NCBI RefSeq assembly: GCF_002289565.1
Contig: NZ_NTFY01000013.1
Location: forward strand, 124,001 to 188,000
DNA: 64,000 nucleotides
DNA from: Rhodopirellula sp. SM50
GTDB lineage: Bacteria; Planctomycetota; Planctomycetia; Pirellulales; Pirellulaceae
Direction of reading: 5' to 3'
The translations under genes were made by a program, and so were the position numbers. A model generated the notes under the pieces. It worked only from the letters and a program-made list of their open reading frames with translations, did no database searches and was not told where the DNA came from. Shown here piece after piece: positions 11,592 through 17,043 of the stretch (position 1 is its first letter; each line of letters opens with the position of its first letter).

Positions 11592-12935
11592 CTACGCCGC
11601 CTTCTCTTCGGCGGCATTGAGTTTGTTGTACAGCGTTTTGACGCTGACGCCCAATTCCTCGGCGGCGGCCTTTTTATCACCGTCGTTCCGTTCGATCGCG
11701 CGTTCAATCGCAATCATCTCCATTTCTCGAATGGTCATCGGACCGGCGTCACGAATCTCGCTTCGCAATTGGCGGCGACTGAAGTGACGCGGCAAGTGCT
11801 CCGCATCGATCGGCAGGGCATCGCACAGGATCGCGGCGTGTTCGACCACATTGGCCAGTTCACGGACGTTGCCGGGCCACTTGTGAGCCAGCAGCTCTGC
11901 GGTGGCCTGCGGCGTGAACAACGCGTCATCGTCGCCATCGCTGCGGTGGCGGCGGAGCAGGTGAACCGCCAACGGCATCAGATCGTCGATCCGTTCTCGC
12001 AGCGGCGGCACATGGATTTCGAAGGTGTTGATGCGAAACATCAGGTCTTCGCGGAACTGTTCCTCGCCGACCATTTTTTCCAGGTCGCGGTGCGTGGCGC
12101 AGATGACGCGGACGTCGACGCGTTTGGATTGGTTGCTGCCCAATCGCCGGATGTCGCCGGTTTCCAAGACCCGCAGCAGTTTGGCCTGCATCGTCATCGG
12201 CAGTTCGCCGATTTCGTCCAGGAAGATCGTGCCTCCGTCGGCCACTTCGAACAATCCGACCCGGGCGTTGTCGGCGCCCGTGAAGGCGCCTTTGACGTGC
12301 CCGAACAGCTCGCTCTCGATCAGGTTTTCCGGCAGGGCACCACAGTTGATGGAAACCATCGGCTCGCCGGCCCGCAGACTAGCTTGGTGGACCGCGCGGG
12401 CGACCAGCTCTTTACCACATCCGGTTTCGCCCAAGATCAAAACCGTGCTGTCGGTCGGGCCCACTTTTTCAATCACTTTGCGGACCTGCAGCATCGACTT
12501 GCCGTCGCCCACCAATTCAGAATCTCCTTCCGCCTGGCGGACGCGGTGCTCCAGCGCCGCCAGCCGTCGCGATTGAGACAGACGATGATAGACTTCGCTG
12601 AGCAAGGATTTGATTTGCTTGAAACTGCACGGCTTGCTGATGAAGGCGAAGACGTGGTTTTCGATCGCGGTCAAGGCGGACTTCAGATCGGGCTTGCCGG
12701 TGATCACGACCGCTTCGATCTCGGGGCGGATCTTGCGCGCCCGAGCGATCACCTCGGCACCCTTGATGCCCGGCATGTCCAAGTCGACGATCATGCAATC
12801 GAACGGCTCCCGCTCGAGCGCGGCGATCGCTGTTTCTCCATCGGGGCAGACGACCACGCTGTGGCCGAGTTTCTCAAGCTGAGTCTTCATCAGCGTCTGC
12901 AGCGACGTTTCATCGTCGGCGTACAGTACGTGCAT
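11592..12935 (-). CDS. NtrC-family sigma-54-dependent response regulator
   Basis: 447 aa from ATG 12935. ATGs at 12965/12968 and an ORF start at 12995 are alternatives overlapping the kinase gene. Receiver domain 1-115: acidic pair D7/D8, phospho-acceptor D51 (MIVDLDMPG), T79 in ITG and K101 in ISKP. AAA+ domain 140-375: Walker A GETGCGKE (169-176), the sigma-54-contacting GAFTGA (216-221), Walker [12 protein letters not shown] and an arginine-finger region. The C-terminus has a Fis-type helix-turn-helix ([20 protein letters not shown]). It should activate sigma-54 promoters when phosphorylated. The cognate kinase gene ends 10 nt upstream of this start (or overlaps it, with the longer starts), so the two form a two-component operon. 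Target genes cannot be told from the sequence. Confidence 0.93.
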
Positions 12936-12945
12936 GGACTCACAT

Positions 12946-14703
12946 TCAGGCGACTTTTTGGACATCATTCCACTTGGTCGAAGAGGGCAGTTCATCGTGA
13001 TCGTTCAGCTCCCGCGACGTGAAGAACGTCGAATCGGAAGGAGACTCTTTCTTGGCGGGCTCCGTCGGCAGCCGCAAGATCATTTTTGACCCACGGCCTT
13101 CCCCTTCGCTATGCGGCGTCAAGGAGCCGTGGTGCAACGACACGATTCGATAGCTGATGCTCAAACCCAATCCGGTGCCGCTGTCATCGCGGCGGCGCGT
13201 AAAGAACGGCTCAAAGAGATGGTCCATCACCTCCTGGTCCATGCCGCATCCGTCGTCTTCAACTTCGACGACGGCTTCCTTGATGCCGCTGAACGGGTCG
13301 ATCTCGTGCCGCACAAACACGTCGACTTTGCCGTCGGTGTCCACCGACTCCAGGGCATTGGAGACCAGGTTCAGGACGACCTGTTGGATTTCCTGAGAAT
13401 TGCAGTACGCGGTGACCGTCTCGTCGGCATGTGTGCGAATTGTTTTGCAGCGGTACTCGCCGACTTTTCCGACCATCGACACGACCCCCGTGACAAGCTG
13501 GCCGAGGTCTTCCTGATTGCGGCTGGAATTACCCAAGCGGCTGAAATTGAGCAGGCGTTGCGTGATGCCCTTGCAGCGAAACGCTTCGGATTGAATCAGC
13601 CCCAGGTTGGTCTGTAGCTCTTGCAGGAATTCCTGGTTGAATCGTTCTTTTTCGTCCGCCGGCAGGTCTTCGAGTGTCCCTTCGAGCGCCTCGGCGCCCC
13701 AGGCGATCGCACCGAGCGGATTGTTGATCTCGTGGGCAACACCGGCCGCCAAGAATCCGACGCTGGCGAGTTGTTCGTTCTGAATCACTTCGCGAGTTCG
13801 CTCGCGGACCTCCTGTTCGGCACGCCGTTTGGCAAGCGTTTCGTTGGCCACCGCGCGGTTGAATCGATCGGTGATGTCATTGACGGTGTCGGCCATCAAT
13901 CCGATTTCGTCGTTGGTCCCCAACAGGATCTTGTGTTGATGGTGACCGCTGGCGATCAATTGCGAGCCGCGGAACAGGGTTCGAAACGGCACGACGATCA
14001 GCGTCCAGAACTGCCAGGCCATGAAAATGATCAGAAACGCGGACAATCCTGTGTAGACGCGAAACCCATTGCGGTTCGCCCTCTGCTCGGCGTGAACGCT
14101 GTCGCGAAATTTCTTCATCTTGCCGCGGATTTCGCCGAAGTACACGTTCGTCAGGTTGGCGAGTTCGTCGACCCCCTCTCCAACTCCCTGATACTGAGCG
14201 TCGTACCGCGAGAAGGTCCTCTTCAGAAGACTGCGCCGGGACCACGCGTCGGTGACCCTGGTCAACAGACCGTCGATTTCTTTCAGGCTGTCGCCTTGCC
14301 GGCCCCGGTCAAGCAACAGACGCGTCTCCGCATGCTCGCTGGGGCGCGCCAGAACAATCGACATGTAGGGCGTCAGATGTCGACGGAAAGACATCAGCCG
14401 GTCGTGGATGTTGGCCTCTTCCAGGCCGAGTGCAGATTCTTCGATGCCCTCGAACCCGATCATCTGATTGGATTCGATGCGGGTCTTCAGTTCGCTGAAC
14501 TGCTCGTACGACTGCCTCAGCAATTCCGCCTGTTGATTGAGCTCATGGGCGTGCTCGATCTCGTCGGCCAAGAGGCTGATCTCGGTCGCCAGGTAGCGGT
14601 CGCGGGCGAGTTGTGACCAGCTGTTGAAGACCAGCAGCCCGATCACGAACGCCAAGCCACACAGGCCGACGATCATCTTGGTACGGATTTTCCATTTTCG
14701 CAT
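12946..14703 (-). CDS. Membrane sensor histidine kinase (HAMP-HisKA-HATPase)
   Basis: 585 aa from ATG 14703; ATG 14727 adds eight residues. The first transmembrane helix is at about 10-27. An approximately 190-residue extracytoplasmic helical sensor region follows, then a second helix (about 217-238) and HAMP (about 240-292). The H-box is GVAHEINNPLGA with His324, and HATPase motifs are QQVVLNLVSNALES (N box), DDGCGMD (G1) and GTGLGLSIS (G2). The H-box and the NtrB-like catalytic order fit a partner for the NtrC-type regulator immediately downstream. The sensor region is mostly helical (four-helix-bundle type) and has no recognisable ligand motif, so the signal is unknown. Confidence 0.93.
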   Translation of the reverse strand: MRKWKIRTKMIVGLCGLAFVIGLLVFNSWSQLARDRYLATEISLLADEIEHAHELNQQAELLRQSYEQFSELKTRIESNQMIGFEGIEESALGLEEANIHDRLMSFRRHLTPYMSIVLARPSEHAETRLLLDRGRQGDSLKEIDGLLTRVTDAWSRRSLLKRTFSRYDAQYQGVGEGVDELANLTNVYFGEIRGKMKKFRDSVHAEQRANRNGFRVYTGLSAFLIIFMAWQFWTLIVVPFRTLFRGSQLIASGHHQHKILLGTNDEIGLMADTVNDITDRFNRAVANETLAKRRAEQEVRERTREVIQNEQLASVGFLAAGVAHEINNPLGAIAWGAEALEGTLEDLPADEKERFNQEFLQELQTNLGLIQSEAFRCKGITQRLLNFSRLGNSSRNQEDLGQLVTGVVSMVGKVGEYRCKTIRTHADETVTAYCNSQEIQQVVLNLVSNALESVDTDGKVDVFVRHEIDPFSGIKEAVVEVEDDGCGMDQEVMDHLFEPFFTRRRDDSGTGLGLSISYRIVSLHHGSLTPHSEGEGRGSKMILRLPTEPAKKESPSDSTFFTSRELNDHDELPSSTKWNDVQKVA

Positions 14704-14924
14704 CGCTGCCGGTGCCTTCCCTTGCACGAATCAGAGCCAACTGTCCACCGTGAAACTCGGCTGCCCTCGACGATACGGACCGCACCGGTCAGCGGCAAGG
14801 TCAACCCGATCCGAATCGGCACAGATGGAAAAATGCGTCCGATCGGTAGGCAAATTCCGTGCTTTTCGTCGCCCCGTGAACCTTTTGGCAGGGGCGTGCG
14901 TCATAGAGCACAGTCAGATTGTTC

Positions 14925-14952
14925 TTGCTTTTTAATTGCCGAGTAAGGATAC
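14925..14952 (+). promoter_or_regulatory. Candidate sigma-70-like promoter for the 15-kb RNA unit
   Basis: TTGCTT at 14925-14930 and GGATAC at 14947-14952 are separated by 16 bp. This is a fair match to -35/-10 boxes and lies just upstream of the structured region that ends in a terminator at 15231. The match is by eye; planctomycete promoter consensus is poorly defined. Confidence 0.35.
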
Positions 14953-15056
14953 TTCTGCTGTCGGGTCGCACTGACGCGGTGCGACGGACTACTTCCGAAC
15001 GCTTCCGGCACCACTCTTGTTGGCGCAAGGGTCGGACGCGTCAAACCAAAGTTTTA

Positions 15057-15069
15057 AAAGGAGGTGATC
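15057..15069 (+). promoter_or_regulatory. Extended perfect Shine-Dalgarno sequence
   Basis: AAAGGAGGTGATC is the 13-nt complement of the conserved 3' tail of bacterial 16S rRNA. The AGGAGG core is 7 nt from the GTG at 15072. Most other starts in this window have weak sites, so this one stands out. Confidence 0.75.
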
Positions 15070-15071
15070 AA

Positions 15072-15113
15072 GTGGATTATTGCTGTACTAGCCAACGGGG
15101 AAGCAACCCGTAG
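15072..15113 (+). CDS. 13-codon mini-ORF behind an ideal ribosome binding site
   Basis: GTG 15072 to TAG 15113 reads MDYCCTSQRGSNP (GTG decoded as Met). The start is chosen from the 13-nt Shine-Dalgarno 7 nt upstream; a GTG at 15064 in another frame lies inside that site. The last five codons form the 5' strand of the predicted outer stem of the RNA. Two adjacent Cys codons (TGC TGT) are notable but not enough to claim Cys-controlled attenuation. It may be a regulatory leader rather than a functional peptide. Confidence 0.45.
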   Translation: MDYCCTSQRGSNP

Positions 15114-15186
15114 ACCAAGTCGGCGGGCTGACGCTTCTGGGTCAGCTTCCCCACTCGAGATCATCTTTTTGATCGCGAGATACAGA

Positions 15187-15231
15187 CCCGTTCGTCGAGA
15201 TTTTACCTTGGTCTCGGCGAGCGGGTTTTTT
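15187..15231 (+). terminator. Intrinsic terminator of the 15-kb RNA unit
   Basis: A 13-bp stem (15187-15199 with 15213-15225, two G-U pairs, otherwise complete) with a 13-nt loop is followed at once by TTTTTT (15226-15231). It is oriented for plus-strand transcription. Confidence 0.8.
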
Positions 15232-15318
15232 GTGCCGTCGATGAATGCCATCGAGGCTCGCGAGCACCGCCGCCAGCACTCACCCTCCCTTTTGGAGGTC
15301 GATCCCCTGTGCCGAGTG

Positions 15319-15513
15319 TTACTCCGAAACCTCGACTGCCTCTGGCACCGGCTCCGTCGACGATGAGAGCGTCAAGGCGAGGACTCCGAGAAAAGTGAGG
15401 CCGAATCCGAGCAGCAGCAGCCAGGCGAACGTCCAGCCGACGATGGCCAAGCAACCGGTCGTCGACTTGATCTGGGGGTCCGTCGTCGGCGTGTAAGGAT
15501 TGGATTCATTCAT
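15319..15513 (-). CDS. Small NPYTP-type membrane protein
   Basis: 64 aa from ATG 15513. The N-terminus MNESNPYTPTTDP resembles the NPYAPP opening of many small Pirellulaceae membrane proteins. A single hydrophobic segment (about residues 20-45, IVGWTFAWLLLLGFGLTFLG) is followed by a Ser/Glu/Val-rich tail. In-frame upstream starts extend into Arg/Ala-rich sequence that does not look coding. It lies between the structured RNA and the tRNA. Function unknown. Confidence 0.6.
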   Translation of the reverse strand: MNESNPYTPTTDPQIKSTTGCLAIVGWTFAWLLLLGFGLTFLGVLALTLSSSTEPVPEAVEVSE

Positions 15514-15744
15514 CCCCGAATTGTACCCGCCCCCCGAGCACGCCGCTGCCCTCGCCAAGGCACGTGCCCTGAGCCAAAACCGCGAGCCATTCGGCATCCG
15601 CCGGTGTCAACCTTCCCGCGAAAACCCATGACATTGCCGCCGGGGCGCCGGATCGATAAACTTCCGGTTCTTGTAACAGGGTCCGCATCCCGGCAAAGCC
15701 TGCCACGAAGCGCACGCCTCACCCGACCACCCCCAACCCCACCC

Positions 15745-15818
15745 GCGCCCATAGCTCAGCTGGATAGAGCATCGGACTTCTAATCCGACGGTCGGAGGTT
15801 CGAATCCTCCTGGGCGTG
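15745..15818 (+). tRNA. tRNA-Arg (anticodon UCU)
   Basis: A 74-nt cloverleaf. Acceptor GCGCCCA pairs with TGGGCGT (one G-U). The D-arm region is TAGCTCAGCTGGATAGAGC, the anticodon stem is TCGGA/TCCGA around loop CTTCTAA (anticodon TCT), and the T arm is GGAGG-TTCGAAT-CCTCC. The discriminator is G and CCA is not encoded. It decodes AGA/AGG. It is the left limit of the repeat-rich accessory stretch at 15.8-22 kb. Confidence 0.96.
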
Positions 15819-15837
15819 CTGCTTTGGCGGGGAGATT

Positions 15838-16520: not shown

Positions 16521-16745
16521 CTAAGCATTCCAGAATGCATCAGGATCAACCCCGGACTGCCTTAGGATGCTATTCAGCGTTCCTTTGCGAATCGGCTTGT
16601 TGCCGTGGTCGGGAATCGTGACCGACCTTCCGGTCGAATCGTTTCGCATCACAACGTGACTTCCCTTCTGGCGGTCTTTCTCAAAACCAAATGTCTTCAA
16701 CTTCCGAATCACCTCACGCGCTGGAAGTTGCGGCTGATTACCCAT
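16521..16745 (-). CDS. hicA: HicA-family mRNA interferase toxin
   Basis: 74 aa from ATG 16745; a TTG at 16751 is possible. It matches the small dsRBD-like HicA fold: N-terminal helix (AREVIRKLKTFGFE), then KDRQKGSHVVMRN with the catalytic His of the GSH motif, TIPDHGNKPIRKGTLNSIL and a final short helix. HicA toxins cleave mRNA and are neutralised by HicB. The start lies inside the last codons of hicB (8-bp overlap), so the two are co-translated. The antitoxin gene comes first here, the reverse of the E. coli order, though known in other genomes. Confidence 0.9.
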   Translation of the reverse strand: MGNQPQLPAREVIRKLKTFGFEKDRQKGSHVVMRNDSTGRSVTIPDHGNKPIRKGTLNSILRQSGVDPDAFWNA

Positions 16746-17043
16746 CGACAACGATTCGAACGATTTGGGCCTTGCCTGTGAATTCCGTCACGGGTATCTC
16801 GGAGTACATCATGGATTCACCGTGAGACTGCCTACTTTCAAGCATTGCAAGAAAGGCCTCGGCAACGTTCTTGACGGCTTCTGAAAGGGTGTCACCTTCA
16901 CTGATCACGCCGGGATAGTGAATTGCGGAGATACTGAATCCTCCGTCATCGTCATCAGGGATCGCAACCGCCTGAAACTCATAGCGAGGTTGTGCGGGCT
17001 TTTGCCAATGGACGATTGACGCGTTTTCAGTTGTCTGGATCAT
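16738..17043 (-). CDS. hicB: HicB-family antitoxin
   Basis: 101 aa. The partial RNase H-like HicB core is visible: FQAVAIPDDDDGGFSISAIH, then YPGVISEGDTLSEAVKNVAEAF. This is the GF.. P... GDT..EA..N..EA pattern of the family. No ribbon-helix-helix or HTH DNA-binding domain is evident in the short C-terminal part, so autoregulation may need a partner. It is followed by hicA with an 8-bp overlap and preceded, 7 bp away, by the DUF6941-like gene on the same strand. Confidence 0.9.
   Translation of the reverse strand: MIQTTENASIVHWQKPAQPRYEFQAVAIPDDDDGGFSISAIHYPGVISEGDTLSEAVKNVAEAFLAMLESRQSHGESMMYSEIPVTEFTGKAQIVRIVVDG

Follow-up and report, generated by a model that had tools for sequence, protein, structure and literature searches.

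What is encoded at positions 14925-15231 of a planctomycete contig, where a promoter-like site, a complete complement to the tail of 16S rRNA, a very short ORF, folded RNA and a terminator follow one another on the same strand? The question comes from the window analysed here, i.e., the whole 64,000-nucleotide stretch of DNA from Rhodopirellula sp. SM50, in which an earlier note made from the letters alone had singled out this compact unit. Judged by comparison between genomes, it is a conserved and previously uncatalogued element, usually present in one copy per genome across one large planctomycete class. The segment is almost certainly a real structured RNA gene, the transcript of which would be about 270 nt long and is probably both expressed and translated.

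Layout, distribution and surroundings of the element

Read from 5' to 3', the element comprises the promoter boxes, the hairpins H1 and H2, the stretch complementary to the 16S tail, a mini-ORF that starts with GTG and has a structured end, and the terminator; direct reading of the sequence recovered every piece listed in the earlier note where that note had placed it. The features of the element, followed by those of its flanks, are:

14925-14953, + strand: promoter-like boxes, TTGCTT (14925-14930) and GATACT (14948-14953) with a 17-nt spacer
14965-14985, + strand: hairpin H1, GTCGCAC / GTGCGAC with an ACGC loop, from covariation
14999-15041, + strand: hairpin H2 with loop 2, from the predicted fold
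15019-15024, + strand: 5' side of the pseudoknot, GTTGGC, in the H2 loop, from covariation
15057-15069, + strand: extended Shine-Dalgarno AAAGGAGGTGATC, able to pair with 13 nt at the 3' end of 16S rRNA
15072-15113, + strand: mini-ORF MDYCCTSQRGSNP, GTG start at 15072-15074, 13 codons, TAG stop
15091-15096, + strand: 3' side of the pseudoknot, GCCAAC, inside the Ser-Gln codons of the ORF, from covariation
15097-15104 / 15145-15152, + strand: stem P1, in which the last ORF codons pair with post-stop sequence
15119-15128, + strand: hairpin P2, GTC[GGCG]GGC, reaching up to 7 bp in other genera
15128-15145, + strand: alternative hairpin P3, CTGAC/GTCAG, the third stem of the earlier note, from sequence
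15154-15179, + strand: hairpin H4, from predicted folds
15187-15231, + strand: intrinsic terminator, a hairpin of about 19 bp followed by T6, from sequence and folding
12946-14727, - strand: histidine-kinase-like ORF (by eye), upstream flank
15319-15597, - strand: small ORF, downstream flank
15745-15819, + strand: tRNA-Arg, downstream of the element

The piece at 15040-15235 gives a folding z of -5.3, none of 200 shuffles folding equally well. The proposed promoter-like site is backed by the relatives, in which CTTGC ... GATAAT boxes recur at the promoter position in the alignment of loci, and the proposed textbook terminator with its T6 run is backed by folding, but a simple promoter/terminator consensus scan of the window called neither. 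The complete 13-nt anti-16S match is confirmed in AAAGGAGGTGATC, and the 13-codon ORF with its TAG ending at 15113 is present; the 7-nt spacing claimed for the GTG holds when counted from GGAGG, whereas the GTG stands only 2 nt after the 13-mer.

Across the 9.8-Mb genome, the exact 13-mer AAAGGAGGTGATC occurs twice, namely in the element and at one further site, which appears to be the complementary strand of the 3' end of 16S (recognised by eye), and the 10-mer AAGGAGGTGA occurs nine times, the copy in the element included. Behind the eight other AAGGAGGTGA places, a single start codon (ATG) lies at 2-11 nt, and its frame is 3 codons long. Over 111 loci, the contiguous match to the 16S tail has a median of 14 nt with G-U allowed, as scored against the sequence complementary to the final 16 nt of the 16S of the window genome rather than of each genome's own. 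An antisense to, or fragment of, 16S rRNA is ruled out, the short complement being all that the two have in common.

Conservation of the stems and the ORF, on which the earlier note had made its proposal depend, is strong in the family and in the class, and it rules out a chance match. By blastn, 24 of 60 genomes (including its own) matched at E <= 0.01. Of the 13 relatives in the same genus, 12 are in this set, the three weakest matches of which cover 23-28 nt; an alignment of 21 loci displays conserved blocks from the promoter through the terminator. Among the covariance models, R1, used for the family search and having P1 one column out of register (correct in R2 and R3), matched 193 of 241 family genomes, or 134 of the 159 of good quality; R2 matched 93 of 246 genomes of the order and 155 of 297 of the class; and R3, built from 51 class-wide sequences, matched 225 of 278 class genomes, or 217 of the 269 of good quality. 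Since near-complete genomes are found among the 53 of 278 without an R3 match, the RNA has been lost or is too divergent there. Two matches in one genome are rare (G125 and G231 among the genomes listed in the R1 family search; G115, G502 and G1016 in the R3 class search). In a 392-genome sample of the phylum, R3 matched 71, i.e., 36 inside the class and 35 outside, the latter with weaker scores and in at most a tenth of the non-class genomes sampled; when 20 of these 35, mostly the better-scoring ones, were read, each of them proved to have a short ORF preceded by the same type of Shine-Dalgarno. These model searches include the training genomes, with rough E-values and stricter filters for the large searches, and conservation is partly ascertained, as the loci were found by models scoring these very sequences.

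The absence of a same-strand gene downstream, asserted in the earlier note, is wrong, given the tRNA-Arg on the + strand. This neighbour occurs in 5 of 11 same-genus loci and in none of the 48 others scanned (flanks of 1.5-3 kb). Clustering of ORFs of at least 90 residues in flanks of 1.5-3 kb around 71 loci yielded no conserved neighbour, the largest clusters holding 8 and 5 loci. These correspond, by eye, to UppP-like (8/71) and DUF368-like (5/71) genes found in the vicinity of the RNA in a minority of the genomes of the family (L023, L058, L070, L071, L072, L087, L092 and L094). In the window itself, and again by eye, an NtrC-like response regulator adjoins the histidine-kinase-like gene (11592-14727, - strand), and adjacent ORFs of 76 and 101 residues resemble a HicA/HicB toxin-antitoxin pair (16521-17043, - strand). 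One scan of viral contigs for the exact window-type pattern returned 0 matches, and a phage-borne element was set aside on that exact form. With no conserved neighbour, a tRNA at genus level only and an empty viral scan, the gene looks like an autonomous RNA gene, usually single-copy, and any effect should act in trans; an attenuator of a neighbour, or a partner of the tRNA-Arg, is disfavoured on the same neighbourhood data.

Helices, pseudoknot and mini-ORF

In 71 sequences, H1 is paired in 93.5% of cells, against a mean of 77.3 and a maximum of 81.5 in 1000 shuffles, and it holds 90 double-change cells against a shuffled maximum of 40; across loci, its ACGC loop is nearly constant and its stem sequence changes freely. 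In 51 class-wide sequences, P1 is paired in 98.4% of cells with double changes in all 5 counted pairs, P2 in 87.2% with double changes in 5 of 6, and both together in 92.3% with 10 of 11 pairs changed on both sides. None of 500 shuffles did as well on any of five measures, and slid versions were 35-48% paired, in a test alignment made with an earlier model that already held P1 and part of P2. The P2 loop reads G(G/A)CG, with covarying arms such as GACAGCC/GGCTGTC, GACAACC/GGTTGTC and GGCAATT/AGTTGCC, and over 91 loci own arms give a mean of 5.14 of 7 versus 4.38 for swapped arms. The three-way junction of the earlier note is seen in close relatives, but the class-wide alignment replaces it as the general fold with P1 closing the GGCG-loop hairpin P2. 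P3 would compete with P2 for the GGCTG strand. As a side observation, locus L161 (G455) has a long insertion, apparently in the P1 loop between the stop codon and the 3' strand of P1.

The pseudoknot scores 5.55 with own pairs versus 5.11 permuted (sd 0.08) over 91 loci, with 0 of 5000 permutations as high, such permutation tests, here and below, being inflated by related sequences. Compensating versions comprise GTTGGC/GCCAAC, GTTCGC/GCGAAC, TGCTGGTA/TACCAGCG and CTGGTT/AACCAG. Of the 19 loci without GCCA on the ORF side, 5 have their own loop among the five best of 91; the pairing fails in some, the own loop ranking 57th, 77th and 83rd of 91 for L074, L123 and L168, respectively. ORF nucleotides take part in both P1 and the covarying pseudoknot, which supports the proposal that translation and folding exclude each other.

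The mini-ORF itself is very probably maintained for translation. All 111 loci, each retained in ORF calling, carry a short ORF that opens at an acceptably spaced start codon and meets its first stop at codons 8-18. When the frame of that start is shifted, a stop falls at codons 8-18 in 11 and 10 of the 111 loci, and in 20 with either shift, the true frame having been allowed several start spacings and the shifted frames none, with a stop at codons 8-18 required. The start codon is GTG in 87 loci, TTG in 19 and ATG in 5. In the structure alignment (51 rows), built without reference to the reading frame, 48 of the 50 complete triplets in the aligned stop columns are stops (TAG 25, TAA 12, TGA 11, TGG 0); when the third column was shuffled, the mean was 41.3 stops and 48 was never reached in 10000 trials. 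In 47 of the 51 rows, the reading frame of the ORF ends at this aligned triplet (exceptions: L071, L133, L164 and L167), and insertions of 3 and 6 nt preserve the frame.

The encoded residues behave differently. Between 61 distinct 13-codon ORFs, codons 2-6 hold 1461 differences at position 2 versus 714 at position 3 and 644 at position 1, and 2345 of the 2819 single-nucleotide codon differences there change the residue; codon position 2 being the most variable, the peptide is not the conserved product. Among 66 13-codon ORFs, Cys-5 is present in 58, and Gln-8, Arg-9, Gly-10 and Gly-11 are frequent, with synonymous changes at Gln and Arg; the frequent residues 7-11 fall on paired nucleotides. 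Peptides elsewhere differ, e.g., VCSGNQVRLL and VKYDCTKGLRN, and in L071 the peptide is frameshifted and the pseudoknot pairing retained. Given the kept stop and frame, the variable position 2 and the location of the frequent residues in paired nucleotides, translation and termination appear to be preserved rather than the peptide. A conserved peptide as the main driver was rejected, codons 2-6 being free of coding constraint.

Proposed ribosome-dependent folding and competing explanations

The reading preferred here, held with doubt and confidence in equal measure, is that of a translation-gated RNA acting in trans, for which the act of translation over some 10-18 codons, not the peptide, appears to be what is selected. 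The transcript would bind the tail of 16S rRNA via the extended Shine-Dalgarno. In the idle state, the ORF would be closed off by the pseudoknot and P1. The extended Shine-Dalgarno would retain a ribosome in spite of the weak GTG or TTG start, this ribosome would melt both elements, and the freed 3' strand could then close over the Shine-Dalgarno and limit re-initiation. Alternative RNA states would in this way be set by ribosome loading, much as in a leader-peptide attenuator that no longer belongs to an operon, with an output in trans that might consist in a target, in RNA stability or in the holding of 30S subunits. In Staphylococcus aureus, weak start codons are helped by extended Shine-Dalgarno helices, according to passages of PMC13009471.

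The 3' strand at 15159-15169 (GATCATCTTTT) can pair alternatively with the Shine-Dalgarno, in versions that include GATCACC/GATCATC. In the family (51 loci), own pairing scores 6.54 versus 5.91 permuted, a value reached by 0 of 5000 permutations; for the 40 loci from elsewhere in the class, the scores are 6.20 versus 5.93, with 33 of 5000 as high, and this weak support outside the family led to the pairing being dropped as a universal feature. Ensemble predictions for 91 loci give the GGAGG core a mean pairing of 0.73, with values above 0.8 in 35 loci and below 0.3 in 1; in 80 loci the Shine-Dalgarno is paired above 0.5, and in 39 of these its partner is the 3' strand. In minimum-energy folds, which ignore the pseudoknot, a terminating ribosome blocking 15096-15126 is predicted to let the RNA refold with a 12-bp helix over the Shine-Dalgarno, and P1 and H4 are predicted to remain when an initiating ribosome is blocked in; in the unperturbed fold, the Shine-Dalgarno helix is present in the shorter piece 15040-15235 and absent once the 5' domain is included. 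Such predicted refolding suggests a putative one-ribosome-at-a-time switch, in which either state might be the idle one.

Other explanations were weighed as well. If the element were a small mRNA, the peptide of 10-18 residues would be the product and the RNA structure would only regulate its synthesis, in keeping with a short ORF in 111/111 loci, the frequent Cys-5, Gln-8, Arg-9, Gly-10 and Gly-11, and the synonymous changes at Gln and Arg; it is made improbable by the variability of codon position 2 in codons 2-6, by the pairing of the Ser-Gln and Arg-Gly-Gly nucleotides in the pseudoknot and P1, by the differing peptides elsewhere and by the pairing that L071 keeps despite its frameshift. 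Alternatively, the 13-16 nt complement might capture small subunits, e.g., in dormancy, the ORF and the roadblock serving to position or stall them. The median complement of 14 nt, the weak start codons and the placing of the pseudoknot at +20 and of P1 at +26 from the first base of the start codon in the window, i.e., close to where mRNA enters a ribosome during initiation, suit a decoy or parking RNA of this kind, which is nonetheless decidedly improbable, as a pure decoy has no need of the kept stop codon and as a single copy behind ordinary promoter boxes gives no hint of the abundance needed. Exceedingly improbable is a role in cis, as attenuator or leader for a gene further downstream: the leader-like ORF, the competing folds, the terminator and the tRNA-Arg that follows on the same strand in 5 of 11 same-genus loci would fit, but no neighbouring ORF of at least 90 residues is conserved around 71 loci (largest cluster 8) and the tRNA is absent from 48 of 48 loci outside the genus.

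Building on the preferred reading of a translation-gated RNA, a bolder proposal, on the unlikely side, is that of a new housekeeping RNA class, predating the split of the planctomycete classes, which gauges how many free 30S subunits are available; the CC2171 RNA would be the same invention, or a member of the same family, in Alphaproteobacteria. Such an RNA would pair with the 16S tail, have about a dozen codons translated with the peptide as waste, and change shape at each ribosome passage, the folded fraction reporting ribosome availability to a partner in trans. The suggestions of the earlier note (dual-function sRNA, regulatory mini-gene, ribosome-sensing element) are partly supported: stems and ORF are conserved and no Rfam family reaches threshold, and a functional peptide lacks support. 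A usually single-copy structured RNA found in most sampled genomes of a class and recognisable in part of the remaining phylum, and covered by no Rfam family, has the distribution that a core function would have; in it, an unusually complete match to the 16S tail is combined with a short ORF of which the translation, not the product, is apparently selected. Should ribosomes be sensed or captured by it, this would represent a new bacterial way of gauging translation capacity as well as a handle on the unexplained CC2171 family, and the covariation map names base pairs that are directly testable.

Comparison with known RNA systems

No family of Rfam 15 reaches threshold on the element, either in the window or in 19 diverse loci, where the hits were one tRNA and one LSU rRNA, both outside the element; low-scoring hits to CrfA, HOTTIP_2, U12 and dinG were taken as chance. 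In a search of the open-access literature, no description of the element RNA was recognised. Nearest in layout is the CC2171 sRNA (RF01867) of Alphaproteobacteria, which reportedly originates with Landt et al. in 2008. It shares the ribosome-binding front end, which has the form GAAAGGAGGTGATCCAGTG in CC2171, and alpha-type loci resemble the element in their GTG-started ORF (18-26 codons), in a stem around the start of the ORF and in a terminator, whereas the interior sequence and helices are others and the CC2171 ORF is longer. Passages of PMC11701678 and PMC5596092 on CC2171 state no function for it.

Whether the element is a divergent branch of CC2171, the two forming one ancient family across two phyla, is a question of descent and as such compatible with the other mechanisms. 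One pattern scan of species genomes returned at least 118 stretches; 80 loci among the matches listed were titled planctomycetes (54), alphaproteobacteria or Ramlibacter (23, hence at least 23 overall) and others (3; L222, L239 and L240), and 80/80 carry an ORF of 10-26 codons. As a positive control, 5 of the 14 alpha-type loci scanned, out of the 23 among the matches listed, are RF01867 over threshold. The element and CC2171 look alike at the front end, which is not independent evidence since the scan pattern itself demands that front end. Against RF01867, the window scores 15.5 bits, below the gathering threshold of 75, and the window-type locus L003 gave no match in a more permissive scan; among 12 loci of the planctomycete phylum, L192, L203 and L210 match end to end at 37, 37 and 30 bits, the best scores (37.2 and 37.0) being half of the gathering score of 75. 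The two alignments viewed, i.e., those of L192 and L203, match at the Shine-Dalgarno, the start and the terminator, but most of the interior is deleted or mispaired, with the CC2171 closing stem CAUUGUC / GACAAUG deleted in L192 and broken at several pairs in L203. In the reverse comparison, R3 gives alpha loci 18-25 bits versus 14 for the bare 16S complement. On balance, common descent with CC2171 is unlikely.

Two sets of loci from the same survey merit mention. L222 and L240, from records titled Deltaproteobacteria and Cyanobacteria, carry a planctomycete-type copy at 35-36 bits with R3 and are possibly mislabelled metagenome bins. L223, L236, L237, L275, L289 and L290 are RNAs of Rhodobacterales or Afifella type in which a GAAAGGAGGTGATCCAGTG-like front end is followed by an ORF of 18-24 codons; the four of them that were scanned (L223, L236, L275 and L289) do not reach the threshold of RF01867, so the true extent of CC2171 may exceed the family as defined in Rfam.

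With leader-peptide attenuators and the sRNAs released from them, the element has in common a short leader-like ORF in a small transcript and, as an idea proposed for it here, translation-dependent alternative stems. In Sinorhizobium meliloti, passages of PMC10117765 describe rnTrpL as an sRNA with the 14-residue peTrpL. Unlike rnTrpL, the element lacks a downstream operon and has a strong Shine-Dalgarno where the rnTrpL start is leaderless. The conserved same-strand downstream gene that marks an attenuator was not found within flanks of 1.5-3 kb; as to stems governed by translation, ORF strands take part in the covarying P1 and pseudoknot, and the predicted alternative folds disagree.

In dual-function sRNAs, such as SgrS, RNAIII and Spot 42, one RNA likewise combines a small ORF with a structured part. 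Their peptide is functional, however, and that of the element is not conserved; with no coding constraint on the peptide, a dual-function sRNA in the usual sense, as suggested in the earlier note, is unsupported. A substitute for tmRNA (RF00023) was rejected as well, since the genome encodes its own tmRNA on a separate contig (164.8 bits), with none in the window. The likeness to tmRNA lies in a structured RNA with an ORF, of roughly 10 codons in tmRNA, that ends within a folded domain; unlike tmRNA, the element has its own Shine-Dalgarno and start codon.
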